NCBI GenBank assembly: GCA_014380505.1
Contig: JACMJT010000454.1
Coordinates: 1 to 5,569, forward strand
Direction: 5' to 3'
Length of the DNA: 5,569 bases
Source: Hyphomicrobiales bacterium
Lineage (GTDB): Bacteria; Pseudomonadota; Alphaproteobacteria; Rhizobiales; Aestuariivirgaceae
Shown here: positions 1-5,569 of the stretch, in pieces
Layout of the letters: each line of letters starts with the position of its first letter
Position numbering within the stretch: position 1 is the first letter of the stretch
Translations under genes and position numbers: made by a program
The notes under the pieces: generated by a model
The model's input: only the letters and a program-made list of their open reading frames with translations
Databases searched by the model: none
What the model was told of the DNA's origin: nothing

Positions 1-41
1 AGCCGTATTTTCGCGGTCATTAAGCCTATTTTCCTCGGTCA
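1..41. repeat. Two imperfect direct repeats, about 21-22 bases apart
   Basis: Copy one (1-20, AGCCGTATTTTCGCGGTCAT) and copy two (23-42, AGCCTATTTTCCTCGGTCAC) share the blocks AGCC, TATTTTC and CGGTCA. TATTTTC is offset by 21 bases and CGGTCA by 22, about two helical turns, so both copies would present the same face of the DNA. This is the spacing expected of a paired regulator site. It could equally be a small chance or slippage duplication, and a further copy may lie beyond the window edge. Function is not known. Confidence 0.4.
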
Positions 42-246
42 CTGCACACTTAGCGCACACGGGACGGGCCGTCATCGCAAAAAACCGGAAAACTCCAGCT
101 TCCGCCGATCCAAACAATGGGGAGCAGCTCACCCTGCCGGCAGAAGCCAGTTTTTGGCGCAATTCTTCGGCTAGCAAGGTGTTGTGTATCGTGTTCGATT
201 GAAACGAGACACTCTCGCAATCAATCAAGGTTGAAACGGTGGTCAT
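1..246 (-). CDS. Possible 5' end of an unrecognised gene, running off the left edge (weak)
   Basis: A minus-strand frame starts with ATG at 246 and stays open for all 82 codons to position 1, so it has no stop in the window. The product begins MTTVSTLIDCESVSF and ends NRLNDRENTA at the edge; it has cysteines at residues 10, 42, 64 and 67, the last two as a C-x2-C pair. I recognise no family. There is no clear Shine-Dalgarno before the ATG (the bases just upstream read ACTGATCCCCGC), and third codon positions show little of the G/C preference seen in the three neighbouring genes. The frame would also contain a hairpin, a T-run and direct repeats that look non-coding. An open stretch of this length can arise by chance, so this is kept only as a low-confidence partial candidate. 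It would lie in the same orientation as the operon, 28 bases after the acyltransferase-hydrolase stop. Confidence 0.2.
   Translation of the reverse strand, partial: MTTVSTLIDCESVSFQSNTIHNTLLAEELRQKLASAGRVSCSPLFGSAEAGVFRFFAMTARPVCAKCAVTEENRLNDRENTA
79..104 (-). terminator. Weak rho-independent terminator candidate, minus strand
   Basis: Read on the minus strand, CGGAA (104-100) can pair with TTCCG (90-86) around a 9-base loop. After one G comes a run of six T (84-79). The layout resembles an intrinsic terminator, but the stem has only five base pairs and lies about 170 bases after the acyltransferase-hydrolase stop. If it works, it would end the lipid-metabolism transcript here. That would conflict with the weak open frame across the same bases. 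Confidence 0.25.
197..226. other. Imperfect hairpin just downstream of the acyltransferase-hydrolase gene
   Basis: The arms GATTGA (197-202) and TCAATC (221-226) are exact reverse complements, and inside them CGAGA (205-209) pairs with TCTCG (213-217) around a 3-base loop. Two or three unpaired bases form a small internal loop between the stems, giving eleven base pairs in 30 bases. It sits 48 bases past the stop codon on the minus-strand transcript. No T-run follows on either strand, so it is not a classical intrinsic terminator. It could be a 3'-end stabilising structure, part of a factor-dependent end, or a binding site. Confidence 0.4.
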
Positions 247-274: not shown

Positions 275-2683
275 TCAGGGCAATCCTGGCGTGCCAGTCG
301 ATGTGTTTTGGATCGGATTTATCTTGCGAACGCGTTTGCCGGAGTGACGCAGCAGACGTGCAAACACGTCGTTCAATGTCGCGCCGATCCTTGGAAGGAT
401 GGTGGTACGAGGAGGCGTTGCCTGGGTCAGCGGGGAGGCCAAGGTGCCAAGCAGCGAGATAACCAGCGCCTGAGTTCCGGCAATGTCTTCATGCAGGATG
501 CCGTGGCGTTGCGATGGGATCATGTGCAGCGATTTTTCCGCCGACCCGATGCGATCATGAATAAGCCGGGCGCTGGTGGGATCGACGATTGGATCGTCCG
601 TTCCCTGGATAATTGTAACGGGGCAGACAACCTGCGGCAGGCAACGGTTGAGCCCGTCCGCCACCTTTCGCAGCTCGACAAGGCCGCGCACCGGCATGTT
701 GCGGTAGTCGATATCCGGATGCTCGGGATCGCGGGGCAGGAACGGCTTGACACCATCCTGGACATAAACCCATTCGCTGAGCTTGTTGAGGCCATGAATG
801 AGCGAAGCAAATGCGACGCTGCGCGGCCGGAAACTGAGCGGGGCCGAAACTGAAACGACGCCAACGAGGCCCGGCGGGCGGCTCGCCGCGAGGTGCAGGG
901 CCAGCGAGGCGCCAGTGGCGAAGCCAACGATGAGCACCTCTTCCGTCAAATGCGACATGATCTCATAACCACGGCGCACCGAGGCCAGCCAGTCCTGCCA
1001 GCTGCGCTCACGCAAATCCCAAGGCGAAGTTCCGTGACCCTTTAACCTGACGCCGAGGACCGGATGGCCCATGCCAGCAAGGCGCTGTCCCAAAGCCTTA
1101 AGTTCCGCAGGAGAGGCTAGAAGACCATGAACCAGCACCACTCCAGGCTTTGAGGGCCGTTCCGGAACAATGAAATAGGGTTCGCCGGATTGGCCGGCGG
1201 TTTCCTGGCCGTTTACAGCAGCATGGCGCGATTCGCTGAATCGTTCCTTGCACTTGGCGAAGCTGCGCACCTCATCGTCAAAGAGAAGATGCGCCAGAGC
1301 CGCGCCTCCGGCCAGCACGGCCTGTTCGACGATTTTTGTGACACCCTCGAGCGCTGCGATTTCATTGGCATAGACGCGAACGACATTCTCGAGGCGCGGG
1401 TCACGGTTGTCATTGCGGCCACGCAGGGCCGGCAGCAGCCGGTAATGGCTGGCGGTGATTTCAATCAATGACGAAGCCGTGGCAGTTTCAAAAAACTGCA
1501 CAAGCGACTGGCTCGTGCCGTCACGAACGCCATCATAGGCCTCAGGATCGGTCAGTGTCCGGTGCAGGTGGAGGTCCGGTTGCTGCTGCACCTGCTTAAT
1601 AATCGCATAGAGAAGTCCGTGAAAGCGGCTTCGCTCAATTTCTGTTTCGCCCTCTTTCAAAAGGCGCATGATAAGCCGCGATGCGAGATGACTGACGTTG
1701 ACGGTGACACGGGCATACATTTCGGTCATGCACAGGTCGCGCAAACGTTGCGTGGTGCGCCGCATGGTAAGGGCCGCCATGCGCTCGATCCAGCGGCTCG
1801 CCGTGTTCTTGAGATCGAAAAGATCTTCGAGACTGTCGATCTGCTCGAAGATGCGGTTCAGTATCATGCGATCCGCCAGGTTCCATGCAACATCGGGATG
1901 AAACGGCTGGCCGAAGCGGATGTCCATGTCGGTATTGCGTAGAAGCAAGTTGCCTTCGACCTGAAATTCTTCCTTGGCCTTCTCGCCAACCTTGAGAAAG
2001 AATTCCGCCGCCTTGCGCAAAATATTGTCGCCGGTGTGGATTGGGTGGAAGGTAATGTTGGAAGGTACAATCAATGAGGGTTTGCGCGCCGCCGCGATCA
2101 ATGCTGTCTGGTCGGCAAGCCCGAGAGCTGCAACCCAACGGTCAAGCCGCTGCAGATCGCCTGCCTCAAGCACTGAGAGGATGCGCTTTTTGAAGATTTC
2201 AAGAACCACGGCCAGCGCTGCGGCGCCGTTGCGGTGCCCGTATTGAGGGCGTAGTGTTTCCAGGAACGGCAATGCCGGAGCGTCGGCAATCCGCCGCTCC
2301 TTGTTCATGCCCCCCTCCGGAAAAATGATTACCTTGCGGCCGCGCAGGATTTCGGCGGCGAGAAAGGCCAATAGTCCCGGGTGATTGTTGGGCACGGCGC
2401 CAACGCCCCACAGCAATTTGGCGAAGCGGTCGTTGCCTTCGAACAGTTCATGGGCGGCAACACAGCGGCAATAAGCCCCTGTGGCTTGGTAAATAAAGTA
2501 TTGCGGAATGATGGTTTCGAAGCGGGCGAAGTGGTTGAACTGAAAAATCTGGCCCTTCTCGATAAGACCGTCTTCAGCATGGACCGCGATGTTCATGCCA
2601 ACGCGGCGGCGCAACAGCGTGAAACCCCTTACACACCATTGGTAGAACGGCTCGTTGATCTTCATTTCGGGGCTGCCGCTCAT
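275..2683 (-). CDS. Fused PlsC-like acyltransferase / alpha/beta-hydrolase protein (802 aa)
   Basis: The N-terminal domain (about 45-260) resembles glycerolipid acyltransferases (PlsC/LPLAT): block I N50-H51-F-A-R-F-E56, block III FPEG at 121-124, and a block-IV-like IVPSNITFHP near 205-214. Block I is H-x4-E instead of H-x4-D. A long, mostly helical region (about 265-500) has no recognised domain. The C-terminal domain (about 505-755) is an Est30/monoglyceride-lipase type alpha/beta hydrolase: oxyanion motif HGLLASP (519-525), GHGTSPWDL (549-557), acid in GTDDPIV (Asp697) and histidine in QRHGIL (His727). The nucleophile elbow is GFATG (587-591), so Ala589 replaces the expected serine and ester hydrolysis by the usual mechanism is doubtful. 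No signal peptide or clear membrane helix is seen. The start at 2683 is chosen for a perfect AGGAGGT 7 bases upstream; the frame also opens at TTG 2740 and ATG 2737, with weaker sites. Likely role, inferred: acyl transfer or lipid handling linked to the upstream beta-oxidation genes. Confidence 0.92.
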   Translation of the reverse strand: MSGSPEMKINEPFYQWCVRGFTLLRRRVGMNIAVHAEDGLIEKGQIFQFNHFARFETIIPQYFIYQATGAYCRCVAAHELFEGNDRFAKLLWGVGAVPNNHPGLLAFLAAEILRGRKVIIFPEGGMNKERRIADAPALPFLETLRPQYGHRNGAAALAVVLEIFKKRILSVLEAGDLQRLDRWVAALGLADQTALIAAARKPSLIVPSNITFHPIHTGDNILRKAAEFFLKVGEKAKEEFQVEGNLLLRNTDMDIRFGQPFHPDVAWNLADRMILNRIFEQIDSLEDLFDLKNTASRWIERMAALTMRRTTQRLRDLCMTEMYARVTVNVSHLASRLIMRLLKEGETEIERSRFHGLLYAIIKQVQQQPDLHLHRTLTDPEAYDGVRDGTSQSLVQFFETATASSLIEITASHYRLLPALRGRNDNRDPRLENVVRVYANEIAALEGVTKIVEQAVLAGGAALAHLLFDDEVRSFAKCKERFSESRHAAVNGQETAGQSGEPYFIVPERPSKPGVVLVHGLLASPAELKALGQRLAGMGHPVLGVRLKGHGTSPWDLRERSWQDWLASVRRGYEIMSHLTEEVLIVGFATGASLALHLAASRPPGLVGVVSVSAPLSFRPRSVAFASLIHGLNKLSEWVYVQDGVKPFLPRDPEHPDIDYRNMPVRGLVELRKVADGLNRCLPQVVCPVTIIQGTDDPIVDPTSARLIHDRIGSAEKSLHMIPSQRHGILHEDIAGTQALVISLLGTLASPLTQATPPRTTILPRIGATLNDVFARLLRHSGKRVRKINPIQNTSTGTPGLP

Positions 2684-2804: not shown

Positions 2805-4583
2805 TCAAAAGGCCTCTTCGCTGAGCGCCATAACCGGTGCCGAACCGGCGGTAATGCTGGACAAAAGGCTGCCGGTTTCGGGGAGCATCTTGGCCAAATA
2901 GAATCTTGCACTTGCGAGTTTGGCGGCGTTGAAGCTGTCGGCGCTGTTGGCTTGCGCGGTTTCCACCATACGGCACCACATGTAACCGATGGCGACAAGC
3001 CCGAACATGCGGAGATATTCGGTTGCCGCAGCGCCCGCATCATCGGGATTTGCCGTTCCGGCCTTGCCTAGCCAGAGCGTTGCCTGCTGCAACCTTCCGA
3101 AGGCCTTGGCCATGGGCATGACGAAATCCATCATGCCCGGCACACCCGCCATGCGTTCGAGATCGGCTGCTACCGGATGGAAGAACCGGCGCGCCAAACG
3201 CCCGGTACCCATGGGCAGCTTCCGGCCCACGAGATCGAGCGCCTGAATGCCGTTGGTACCTTCATAGATCTGGGTAATGCGCGCATCGCGCGCCAGCTGC
3301 TCCATTCCGTTTTCCCGGATATAACCATGGCCGCCAAAAACCTGCATGCCGTCGTTGGCGGCGCTGAAACCCAGATCGGTGAGCATGGACTTCACGATTG
3401 GAGTCATGAGGGCCACGAGATCATCGGCAGCCTCGCGCCGCTCGGCATCGGGATGGCTGGTGGAAATGTCGAGTTCATGGCCAATCCACAGTGCCAGCGC
3501 CCGGCAGCCCTCGGTCATCACTTTCATCTTCATCAGCAGGCGCCTTATGTCGGGATGGACGATGATGGGATCGGCGGGCTGATCGGGAAATTTAGCGCCT
3601 GTCGCGGCGCGCATCTGCAAGCGACTTTTAGCGTAGGCGACCGCGCCCTGGTAGGCGGCTTCTGCAACGCCAAGGCCCTGAATGCCCACCATGAGGCGCG
3701 CGGCGTTCATCATGGTGAACATGGCGGAGAGTCCCTTGTGGGGCTGGCCCACGAGCCAGGCGTGCGCGCCATCGAAGTTCATGACGCAAGTGGGCGAGGC
3801 CTTGATCCCCATTTTCTTTTCAAGGGCGCCGCAGGCCAGCGCGTTTCTTTTTCCCACGGCGCCATCGGCCATTGGCAGGAACTTGGGACAGACAAAAAGC
3901 GAAATGCCGCGAACCCCTGTCGGAGCATCGGGGAGTCTGGCCAGCACGAGGTGGACGATGTTCTCGGTCAAGTCGTGCTCACCGGCGGAGATAAAAATCT
4001 TGGTGCCGTGAATTTTGAAGGAGCCGTCGCCTGCGGGCTCGGCGCGCGTCTTGATGAGGCCGAGGTCGGTGCCGCATTGGGGCTCGGTCAGGCACATGGT
4101 GCCGGACCATTGGCCGGAGACCATTTTCGGCAGATAGGTTTGCTTCAGCGCATCGGTGGCATGGACGCGCAGTGCGTTGTAGGCGCCATGCGTCAAGCCC
4201 GGGAAAAGCCCGAAGGAAAGATTGGCGGAGCAGATCATTTCTTCAACGGCAAAGTTCACGGGCGAGGTAAGCCCCTGCCCGCCGAATTGGGGATCGCAGG
4301 CAAGGCCGGTCCAGCCGCCTTCAACGTATTTGTTGTAAGCCTCCTTGAAGCCTTTGGGTGTCGTTACCGTTCCTTGCTCGAAGTGGCAGCCTTCCTCATC
4401 GCCACTGCGATTTATGGGTTGCAACACATTTTCGCAGAAGCGGCCCGCCTCCTCCAGAATGGCGGTCACAACATCGGGAGAGGCTTCTGCATAGGAGGCC
4501 ATGGCGTTGCCTGAGTCCTGCACTTTCAGAACGTCGAAGAGGATAAATTGCATGTCGCGCAGGGGCGCTTTGTAGCTGGGCAT
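2805..4583 (-). CDS. Acyl-CoA dehydrogenase, DmdC-like long form (592 aa)
   Basis: This is an FAD-dependent acyl-CoA dehydrogenase that forms the 2,3-double bond of an acyl-CoA, passing electrons to electron-transfer flavoprotein. The order is N-terminal helical domain (about 35-160), middle beta domain with the flavin/substrate motif CLTEPQCGTDLG (164-175), C-terminal helical domain with QVFGGHGYIRENGMEQLARD (414-433), and the catalytic base Glu441 in IYEGTNGIQ. A further C-terminal extension (about 465-592) is typical of the 590-600 residue subfamily that includes DmdC (methylmercaptopropionyl-CoA dehydrogenase) and many uncharacterised fatty acyl-CoA dehydrogenases. Chain-length preference cannot be read from sequence. 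The start MPSYKAPLRDMQF at 4583 matches the usual family N-terminus and has GAGG just upstream. The frame extends upstream to an ATG at 4661, but that would overlap the previous gene and add 26 residues unlike the family. It is coupled to the upstream hydratase gene with a 7-base gap. Confidence 0.95.
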   Translation of the reverse strand: MPSYKAPLRDMQFILFDVLKVQDSGNAMASYAEASPDVVTAILEEAGRFCENVLQPINRSGDEEGCHFEQGTVTTPKGFKEAYNKYVEGGWTGLACDPQFGGQGLTSPVNFAVEEMICSANLSFGLFPGLTHGAYNALRVHATDALKQTYLPKMVSGQWSGTMCLTEPQCGTDLGLIKTRAEPAGDGSFKIHGTKIFISAGEHDLTENIVHLVLARLPDAPTGVRGISLFVCPKFLPMADGAVGKRNALACGALEKKMGIKASPTCVMNFDGAHAWLVGQPHKGLSAMFTMMNAARLMVGIQGLGVAEAAYQGAVAYAKSRLQMRAATGAKFPDQPADPIIVHPDIRRLLMKMKVMTEGCRALALWIGHELDISTSHPDAERREAADDLVALMTPIVKSMLTDLGFSAANDGMQVFGGHGYIRENGMEQLARDARITQIYEGTNGIQALDLVGRKLPMGTGRLARRFFHPVAADLERMAGVPGMMDFVMPMAKAFGRLQQATLWLGKAGTANPDDAGAAATEYLRMFGLVAIGYMWCRMVETAQANSADSFNAAKLASARFYLAKMLPETGSLLSSITAGSAPVMALSEEAF

Positions 4584-4587
4584 CGTT

Positions 4588-4593
4588 ACCTCA
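4588..4593 (-). promoter_or_regulatory. Ribosome binding site overlapping the upstream stop codon
   Basis: On the minus strand the junction reads TGAGGTAACGATG: the TGA stop of the hydratase gene (4593-4591) forms part of the TGAGGT that serves the ATG at 4583. Spacing from GAGG to ATG is 5 bases. Overlap of stop and ribosome binding site points to translational coupling and fixes the dehydrogenase start at 4583 rather than the in-frame ATG at 4661. Confidence 0.7.
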
Positions 4594-5569
4594 ATTCCGC
4601 AATGGCTTGCCGTCGGCCAGCATGGCTTCCATTCTCGCCAGGGTTGGCTCAGTCTTAACAAGCGCCATGAAGGCCCGCTTCTCGAGCTTCATCACGCGGT
4701 CCTCATCAACCGTATCCATCACATCTGTGTCGCCACCGGAGAGCACATTGGCGAGGTGGCCCGCGACGGCGACATCATGGGGGAACGCCAGCCCTTGCAA
4801 GACATAGCCATCGACGGCAAGCCTGAGTGCCGCACGGGCCGTGGCTCCGGGCAGGCGAAGTTCAACGGGATCGGGCGGCTTGTAGCCAGCGGCCGCCATC
4901 TTGAGCGCCAGGGCCTTGGCATCGGCCAGCAGCCTGTCGCGGTTCATGGTGATGCCATCGGTCTTGCGAAGAAGTTTCATCTCCTTGGCATCGGCGGCGG
5001 ATTTCGAAACCTTAGCCAGGGATATTTGCTCGACGGCCGCCATCACGGCGGGCATGGGCCCCTGGGGCTCTCGGGGGCCGGGCTGGTTACGGATCAGCAT
5101 TTCCTTGCAGCCGCCCCAGGCTGGAATTATGCCAACTCCCACTTCAACGAGGCCCATGTAGGTTTCCGCATGGGCCTGCACGGCCGAACAGTGGAGCAGA
5201 ATTTCACAGCCGCCGCCCAAGGCCATGCCGCTGGGCGCTCCCACCACAGGGAACTTTGCATATTTGAGCGCGCGCATCACCGACTGGCCCTGGACGATCA
5301 ACTGGTCCAGCGTTGGCCACACGGCAAGATTTGCGGCAAAGAGGGCGAGACCAATGTTGGCGCCGACGGAAAAATTGTCGGCCTCATTGTGAATGATGAG
5401 GGCGCGCATGCCTTCTCCTACAATGTCGACGGCCTGCTGCACCATGGCGAGACTATCGGGATCAAGCGTGTTCATCTTGCTGTGGAATTCAAGGCAGGCA
5501 ACGCCGTCGCCAATGTCCCAGACGCTGGCCGAACCGTTCCTTGCGAGGGGCTTTGCTCCCCGCTTGCAG
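4591..5569 (-). CDS. 3-hydroxyacyl-CoA dehydrogenase/enoyl-CoA hydratase, FadN type (3' part only)
   Basis: The last 325 codons of a larger gene are visible; the frame is still open at 5569, upstream of the internal ATG at 5475, so the true start is outside the window. The visible part is a crotonase-fold enoyl-CoA hydratase domain: linker and first strand SASVWDIGDGVACLEFHSK, oxyanion motif NFSVGANIG, then GGGCE and GLVEVGVGIIP. The two glutamates used for water addition are both present, at visible residues 122 (codon 5203-5205) and 142 (5143-5145), 20 apart as in E. coli FadB Glu119/Glu139. The C-terminus ends in GKPLRN, a familiar ending of FadN-type proteins (NAD-dependent hydroxyacyl-CoA dehydrogenase first, hydratase last, about 770-790 residues). 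The dehydrogenase half is inferred, not seen. Role: hydration of trans-2-enoyl-CoA and oxidation of the 3-hydroxyacyl-CoA in the cytoplasm. It is followed directly by the acyl-CoA dehydrogenase gene, giving two consecutive beta-oxidation enzymes in one operon. Confidence 0.93.
   Translation of the reverse strand, partial: CKRGAKPLARNGSASVWDIGDGVACLEFHSKMNTLDPDSLAMVQQAVDIVGEGMRALIIHNEADNFSVGANIGLALFAANLAVWPTLDQLIVQGQSVMRALKYAKFPVVGAPSGMALGGGCEILLHCSAVQAHAETYMGLVEVGVGIIPAWGGCKEMLIRNQPGPREPQGPMPAVMAAVEQISLAKVSKSAADAKEMKLLRKTDGITMNRDRLLADAKALALKMAAAGYKPPDPVELRLPGATARAALRLAVDGYVLQGLAFPHDVAVAGHLANVLSGGDTDVMDTVDEDRVMKLEKRAFMALVKTEPTLARMEAMLADGKPLRN

Follow-up and report, generated by a model that had tools for sequence, protein, structure and literature searches.

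A 5,569-nt stretch of DNA from a Hyphomicrobiales bacterium (GenBank assembly GCA_014380505.1, contig JACMJT010000454.1), here called the window, encodes on its minus strand an 802-residue fusion protein in which a GPAT/PlsC-like acyltransferase, a middle region and an α/β-hydrolase domain follow each other in one chain. The hydrolase domain carries alanine, Ala589, at the nucleophile elbow, and this substitution is genuine and not an artefact. Loss of the catalytic nucleophile is usually taken as the sign of a dead enzyme. Here it is fixed in a large clade and apparently repeated in relatives, and the proteins concerned have almost without exception retained their other two catalytic residues. 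This suggests that the domain has been repurposed, not broken. The reading we favor, to which we give an even chance, is that the Ser-less domain has lost acyl-enzyme chemistry and keeps its pocket for binding acyl or acylglycerol ligands, with the His-Asp dyad probably doing acid-base work. The features on which this account is built are as follows.

275..2683, minus strand: fusion protein of 802 residues, GPAT/PlsC-like acyltransferase, middle region and α/β-hydrolase (open reading frame from the ATG at 2681-2683, profile and fold matches, AlphaFold2)
449..1186, minus strand: α/β-hydrolase domain, about residues 500-745
911..925, minus strand: nucleophile elbow G587-F-A589-T-G591 (translation of the frame, phmmer, AlphaFold2)
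917..919, minus strand: codon GCC, Ala589, nucleophile position (the plus strand reads GGC; family column)
593..595, minus strand: Asp697 of the His-Asp dyad (122/122 Ser-less proteins)
503..505, minus strand: His727 of the His-Asp dyad (120/122 Ser-less proteins)
1124..1129, minus strand: His519-Gly520, oxyanion-hole HG motif (His519 in 122/122 and Gly520 in 115/122 Ser-less proteins)
905..907, minus strand: Ser593, disfavored as a substitute nucleophile (family alignment)
908-910, minus strand: codon 592, site of the covarying Gly592-to-Ala change (family alignment)

Codon 589 of the frame is GCC and lies within LIVGFATGASLAL. An earlier note on this DNA had read an Ala in place of the nucleophile Ser in an otherwise preserved site; its numbering of the elbow, Asp697, His727, the HG at 519-520 and Ser593 is correct for the start at ATG 2681-2683. 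In a phmmer alignment, the FATG of the window protein falls on the LSMG at the elbow of monoacylglycerol lipases of known structure. In the AlphaFold2 model, strand 583-588 is followed by helix 590-600, which places residue 589 on the elbow; Asp697 and His727 lie just after strands 689-694 and 717-722, respectively. Around the elbow and both dyad residues, the block means of the predicted local distance difference test score (pLDDT) are 93-97; over residues 621-660 they are 73-88. Family column, phmmer and AlphaFold2 thus agree with the note, and the domain indeed holds no other correctly placed G-x-S-x-G.

The domain belongs by fold and by a profile match above the cut-off to PF12146 (monoacylglycerol lipase-like) and has the Asp and His of the triad, but Ala589 takes the place of the nucleophile Ser in G-x-S-x-G. 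In the aligned chains of the bacterial monoacylglycerol lipases of this family (Bacillus sp. H257, 3rm3; Geobacillus, 5xks), the elbow reads GLSMGG and thus holds Ser, whereas the window protein has Ala and is fused to an acyltransferase. As a control, 30 loci were drawn from the top-scoring PF12146 matches of 96 genomes of the class, a choice that makes them a biased yardstick. An open reading frame with GxSxG was found at 27 of the 30, the placement of the pattern on the elbow being unconfirmed in several; no frame passed the filter at the remaining three, of which L057 and L062 showed GxSxG and L052 gave no clear answer. Judged by sequence, the elbow substitution is uncommon among related PF12146 domains.

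The family was collected by three protein searches that favored similar lengths (120 matches listed of 754, 2177 and 1259, respectively), giving with the query 257 different proteins. At column 589 of their alignment, 134 proteins carry Ser, 103 Ala and 19 Gly, while a single one is gapped, so that 122 of the 256 ungapped proteins are Ser-less; an earlier set of 232 proteins comprised 97 Ser-less and 134 Ser proteins. The rest of the site is retained in the Ser-less proteins, with Asp697 in 122, His727 in 120, His519 in 122, Gly520 in 115 and Thr590 in 114. Among the 134 Ser proteins, Asp697 is found in 132 (two gaps) and His727 in 131 (one Asn, one Arg, one gap). One rival explanation is a strain mutation or base-call error at 919, as considered in the earlier note, or an assembly fault, GCC being one base away from TCC (Ser). 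The relatives share Ala or Gly, encoded at the Ser-less loci read by GCC, GCG and GGC, and the Aestuariivirga entries P0019, P0028 and L001 are among them. The error explanation is thereby refuted for the family, and we leave it virtually no weight.

Trees were computed without the elbow columns 585-596. With FastTree and 254 rows, 116 Ser-less proteins (98 Ala, 18 Gly) form one clade with a stem support of 88, and five single Ser-less rows fall outside it, making six changes in total. Aligning homologues at Ala589, as the note had advised, thus gives Ala or Gly across a 116-protein clade. A smaller FastTree tree of 228 proteins has a Ser-less clade of 91 (support 100), with four further Ser-less rows standing singly outside it; P0256 is the row added in the larger tree. 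A quick IQ-TREE run on 91 chosen rows, including genome loci, recovers a Ser-less clade of 34 rows (support 100). Rooted on its most distant row, the Ser-type L042, this tree holds six changes between Ser and non-Ser, namely the 34-row clade, P0073, P0106, P0089, P0220 and L034. The rooted tree has the Ser state at its outermost position, so Ser was probably lost and not gained. The five single Ser-less proteins and the genome locus L034 look like separate losses; these could partly be sequence errors, which is no explanation for the large clade.

The 91-protein clade has a tree length of 13.2 changes per column and a lowest pairwise identity of 49% in the hydrolase domain, of which 34 of 246 columns are invariant, including Asp697, His727, His519 and Thr590. 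Exchanges between Ala and Gly at 589 are present in this clade and Ser is never seen. A three-state model has a log-likelihood (lnL) of -20.9 without Ser against -25.1 with Ser at the Ala-Gly rate (2ΔlnL 8.4), a result that depends on few Ala-Gly changes and on one FastTree tree. Ser thus seems to have passed beyond mere dispensability in the Ser-less clade, with no return.

Serine hydrolases of this fold are described as requiring the Ser to form the acyl-enzyme (PMC10548524), and classical lipase activity is therefore not expected of the Ala and Gly forms. A precedent is provided by the cofactor-independent 2,4-dioxygenases HOD and AqdC, α/β-hydrolase folds in which, according to the same source and to PMC3961685, a His-Asp dyad serves as the base and the nucleophile is dispensable. 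The S101A variant has an unaffected kcat and a Km raised 60-fold (PMC10548524, PMC3961685), and the wild-type elbow of AqdC already holds Ala (PMC10548524). Loss of Ser with His and Asp kept is also the pattern of the window protein, a likeness in sequence pattern, and by this analogy a non-covalent dyad pocket would be the favored outcome. HOD and AqdC act on N-heteroaromatics, while the window gene sits in a fad cluster. The Ser-to-Ala change at an elbow with a retained dyad is thus already known elsewhere.

The history that we propose would start from a Ser-His-Asp enzyme resembling monoacylglycerol lipases, fused to a GPAT-like acyltransferase within a β-oxidation gene cluster. In one large clade the nucleophile would have become Ala or Gly with the remaining site kept, and covalent hydrolysis through an acyl-enzyme would have been lost. 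The pocket may then bind acyl-coenzyme A (acyl-CoA) or acylglycerol without covalent attachment, the His-Asp dyad acting as general acid/base on the ligand, or on a water or an acceptor alcohol in the position of the former Ser hydroxyl. Such a dyad pocket might serve the attached acyltransferase and the neighboring β-oxidation enzymes.

Several observations weigh against this proposal. Most of the relatives of known structure that were found carry lipase or esterase annotations; no dioxygenase occurs among the PDB profile matches listed (best 60 of 88) or the 50 fold matches listed, and no direct comparison with a dioxygenase was made. With acyltransferase divergence held equal, the ratio for hydrolase-domain divergence is 1.2-1.6 in the Ser-less set against 1.0-1.5 in the Ser set, and the Ser-less domain diverges faster in 7 of 7 shared distance bands. 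This points weakly to a mild relaxation of constraint. In the Ser-less set the middle region is likewise faster in 7 of 7 bands, by a small margin in the two most divergent. Two of the 122 Ser-less proteins are without His727: P0256, which stops at about position 717, and P0253, which has an unrelated-looking C-terminus from about the same position; the former may be a partial entry and the latter a frameshifted one. Finally, Asp and His could be retained for structure alone.

The same acceleration, the apparently repeated losses of Ser and the two proteins without the His727 end of the domain would also be expected if the hydrolase domain were dispensable and slowly eroding. We compared the window with L001, an Aestuariivirga metagenome-assembled genome that is its nearest named relative (89% identity). 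The ratio of nonsynonymous to synonymous substitution rates (dN/dS) amounts to 0.052 for the hydrolase domain, 0.064 for both the acyltransferase domain and FadE, 0.170 for the middle region and 0.594 for the 57-residue tail. The hydrolase domain is under strong purifying selection in this pair and is therefore maintained. Together with the retention of Asp (122/122) and His (120/122) and the restriction of the elbow to Ala or Gly in the 116-protein clade, this makes neutral decay quite improbable. Constraint on the Ser-less hydrolase domain is shifted or slightly relaxed and still present.

The most serious competitor, which we place somewhat below an even chance, is that the domain performs no chemistry at all, its role being confined to binding (of an acyl chain, acyl-CoA or acylglycerol) or to shaping the acyltransferase. 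In favor of this are the missing nucleophile, the slightly accelerated divergence of the Ser-less domain and the fusion to an acyltransferase in the members seen, although the last arises partly by construction from the length-biased searches. It also has a parallel in the NDRG proteins, α/β-hydrolase folds considered non-enzymatic (PMC9103136), where the triad is lost through substitutions. Unlike the NDRGs as described there, the Ser-less proteins keep Asp in 122 and His in 120 of 122, in a domain of which the 91-protein clade leaves no more than 34 of 246 columns invariant. A non-hydrolytic binder or regulator was among the possibilities raised in the earlier note: the loss of the nucleophile stands, and the retained dyad speaks against a purely passive role. 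Dyad-based chemistry, which was not among the options of that note, may be at work, the retention of Asp697 and His727 leaving room for it.

Alternatively, the nucleophile might have moved, with Ser593 or Thr590 replacing Ser589 in a persisting serine or threonine hydrolase. Ser593 is found in 109 of the 122 Ser-less proteins against 20 of the 134 Ser proteins, which looks like compensation, and Thr590 in 114 of the 122. However, the 13 Ser-less proteins without Ser593 (8 Ala, 3 Thr, 2 Val) all keep Asp and His, both serines occur together in the 20 Ser proteins just mentioned, solved lipases whose elbow Ser works have Thr at the equivalent place (GLSMGGTLTL), and residue 593 lies one turn down the helix 590-600 in the AlphaFold2 model. 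The Ser set, too, mostly has Thr590 (109/134). Ser593 is thus unlikely as a substitute nucleophile, and we attach little probability to a relocated one in general. The preceding residue, Gly592, tracks the loss of Ser589, being Ala in 111 of the 122 Ser-less proteins against 6 of the 134 Ser proteins; this covariation suggests repacking at the start of the post-elbow helix.

Ser-type members such as P0107, P0067 and L028 share the architecture of the window protein at more than 50% identity, and a similar cluster surrounds L028. Unlike the window protein, they have GFSTGG and a complete Ser-Asp-His triad, and presumably carry an active lipase/esterase domain, to judge from these residues. Where given, the database names of family members are mostly 'esterase/lipase' or 'alpha/beta fold hydrolase', some adding acyl-CoA synthetase, AMP-binding protein (long forms) or acyltransferase; as a description of the Ser-less half, 'esterase' probably misleads. 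Within the library covered, literature searches aimed at the family listed no publication on it. A bolder proposal, which we regard as rather unlikely, is that the Ser-less clade forms a new enzyme class, in which a His-Asp dyad, next to a still intact oxyanion hole and the empty place left by the serine, acts directly and without an acyl-enzyme on a fatty acyl-CoA or a β-oxidation intermediate. The same chain would couple this dyad to the atypical HX4E acyltransferase and, in its long forms, also to an acyl-CoA synthetase. If so, the switch from serine to dyad only would have occurred several times in one family whose Ser-type and Ser-less forms can be compared. The family offers in any case a natural series (Ser, Ala or Gly, with or without Ser593) for asking what a nucleophile-free hydrolase fold does, and draws attention to the acyltransferase-hydrolase(-ligase) protein of alphaproteobacterial β-oxidation clusters.

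The remainder of the fusion protein comprises the following features.

1814..2683, minus strand: acyltransferase domain, about residues 1-290
2516..2533, minus strand: acyltransferase motif I, H51-FARF-E56, HX4E replacing HX4D (family alignment)
1187..1813, minus strand: middle region, about residues 291-499, mostly helical (AlphaFold2 models; partial overlap with the GPAT1 match)

The acyltransferase half has the GPAT/PlsC fold, and the match to GPAT1 spans residues 1-454. GPAT/PlsC acyltransferases follow an HX4D motif rule, seen in human GPAT1 (8e4y) and bacterial PlsC (5kym), whereas the window protein and its family have HX4E. All 249 family proteins that are ungapped at this motif have the H and the E, whether Ser-type or Ser-less (the other 8 of the 257 are gapped); the acyltransferase may itself be unusual. 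The family further differs from GPAT1 and PlsC by its C-terminal hydrolase and, in some members, an AMP-binding ligase. In the long forms (for example L030:5485-9675 on the minus strand, P0044 and P0067), acyltransferase, α/β-hydrolase and AMP-binding acyl-CoA synthetase make up one chain of 1350-1400 residues. The ligase is the next gene in L031 and L034, and is found elsewhere in the same cluster in L043.

The genes of the window are arranged on the minus strand in the order FadB-like 3' part, FadE-like acyl-CoA dehydrogenase and fusion protein.

4591..5568, minus strand: FadB-like protein, C-terminal enoyl-CoA hydratase-like part, truncated by the window end (PF00378; full-length frame in L001)
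2805..4583, minus strand: acyl-CoA dehydrogenase, FadE-like with PF12806, upstream neighbor of the fusion gene (same order in L001)
1-246, minus strand: possible open frame of 82 residues that continues past the window end, on the downstream side of the fusion gene

In L001, the order is thiolase-FadB-FadE-fusion, and haem-uptake-like genes lie downstream on the opposite strand; the thiolase and the haem-uptake-like genes are named from reading the translations. A FadB homolog is found near the fusion gene in 14 of the 17 class genomes that have the family, 13 of these at a sequence identity of at least 50%; the other three have none in the stretch read, which for L046 is a 4.3-kb contig. The distribution of the fusion gene across the order looks patchy, as it is present in 2 of 397 sampled genomes (G001 and G017), against 122 Ser-less clusters in the protein database.
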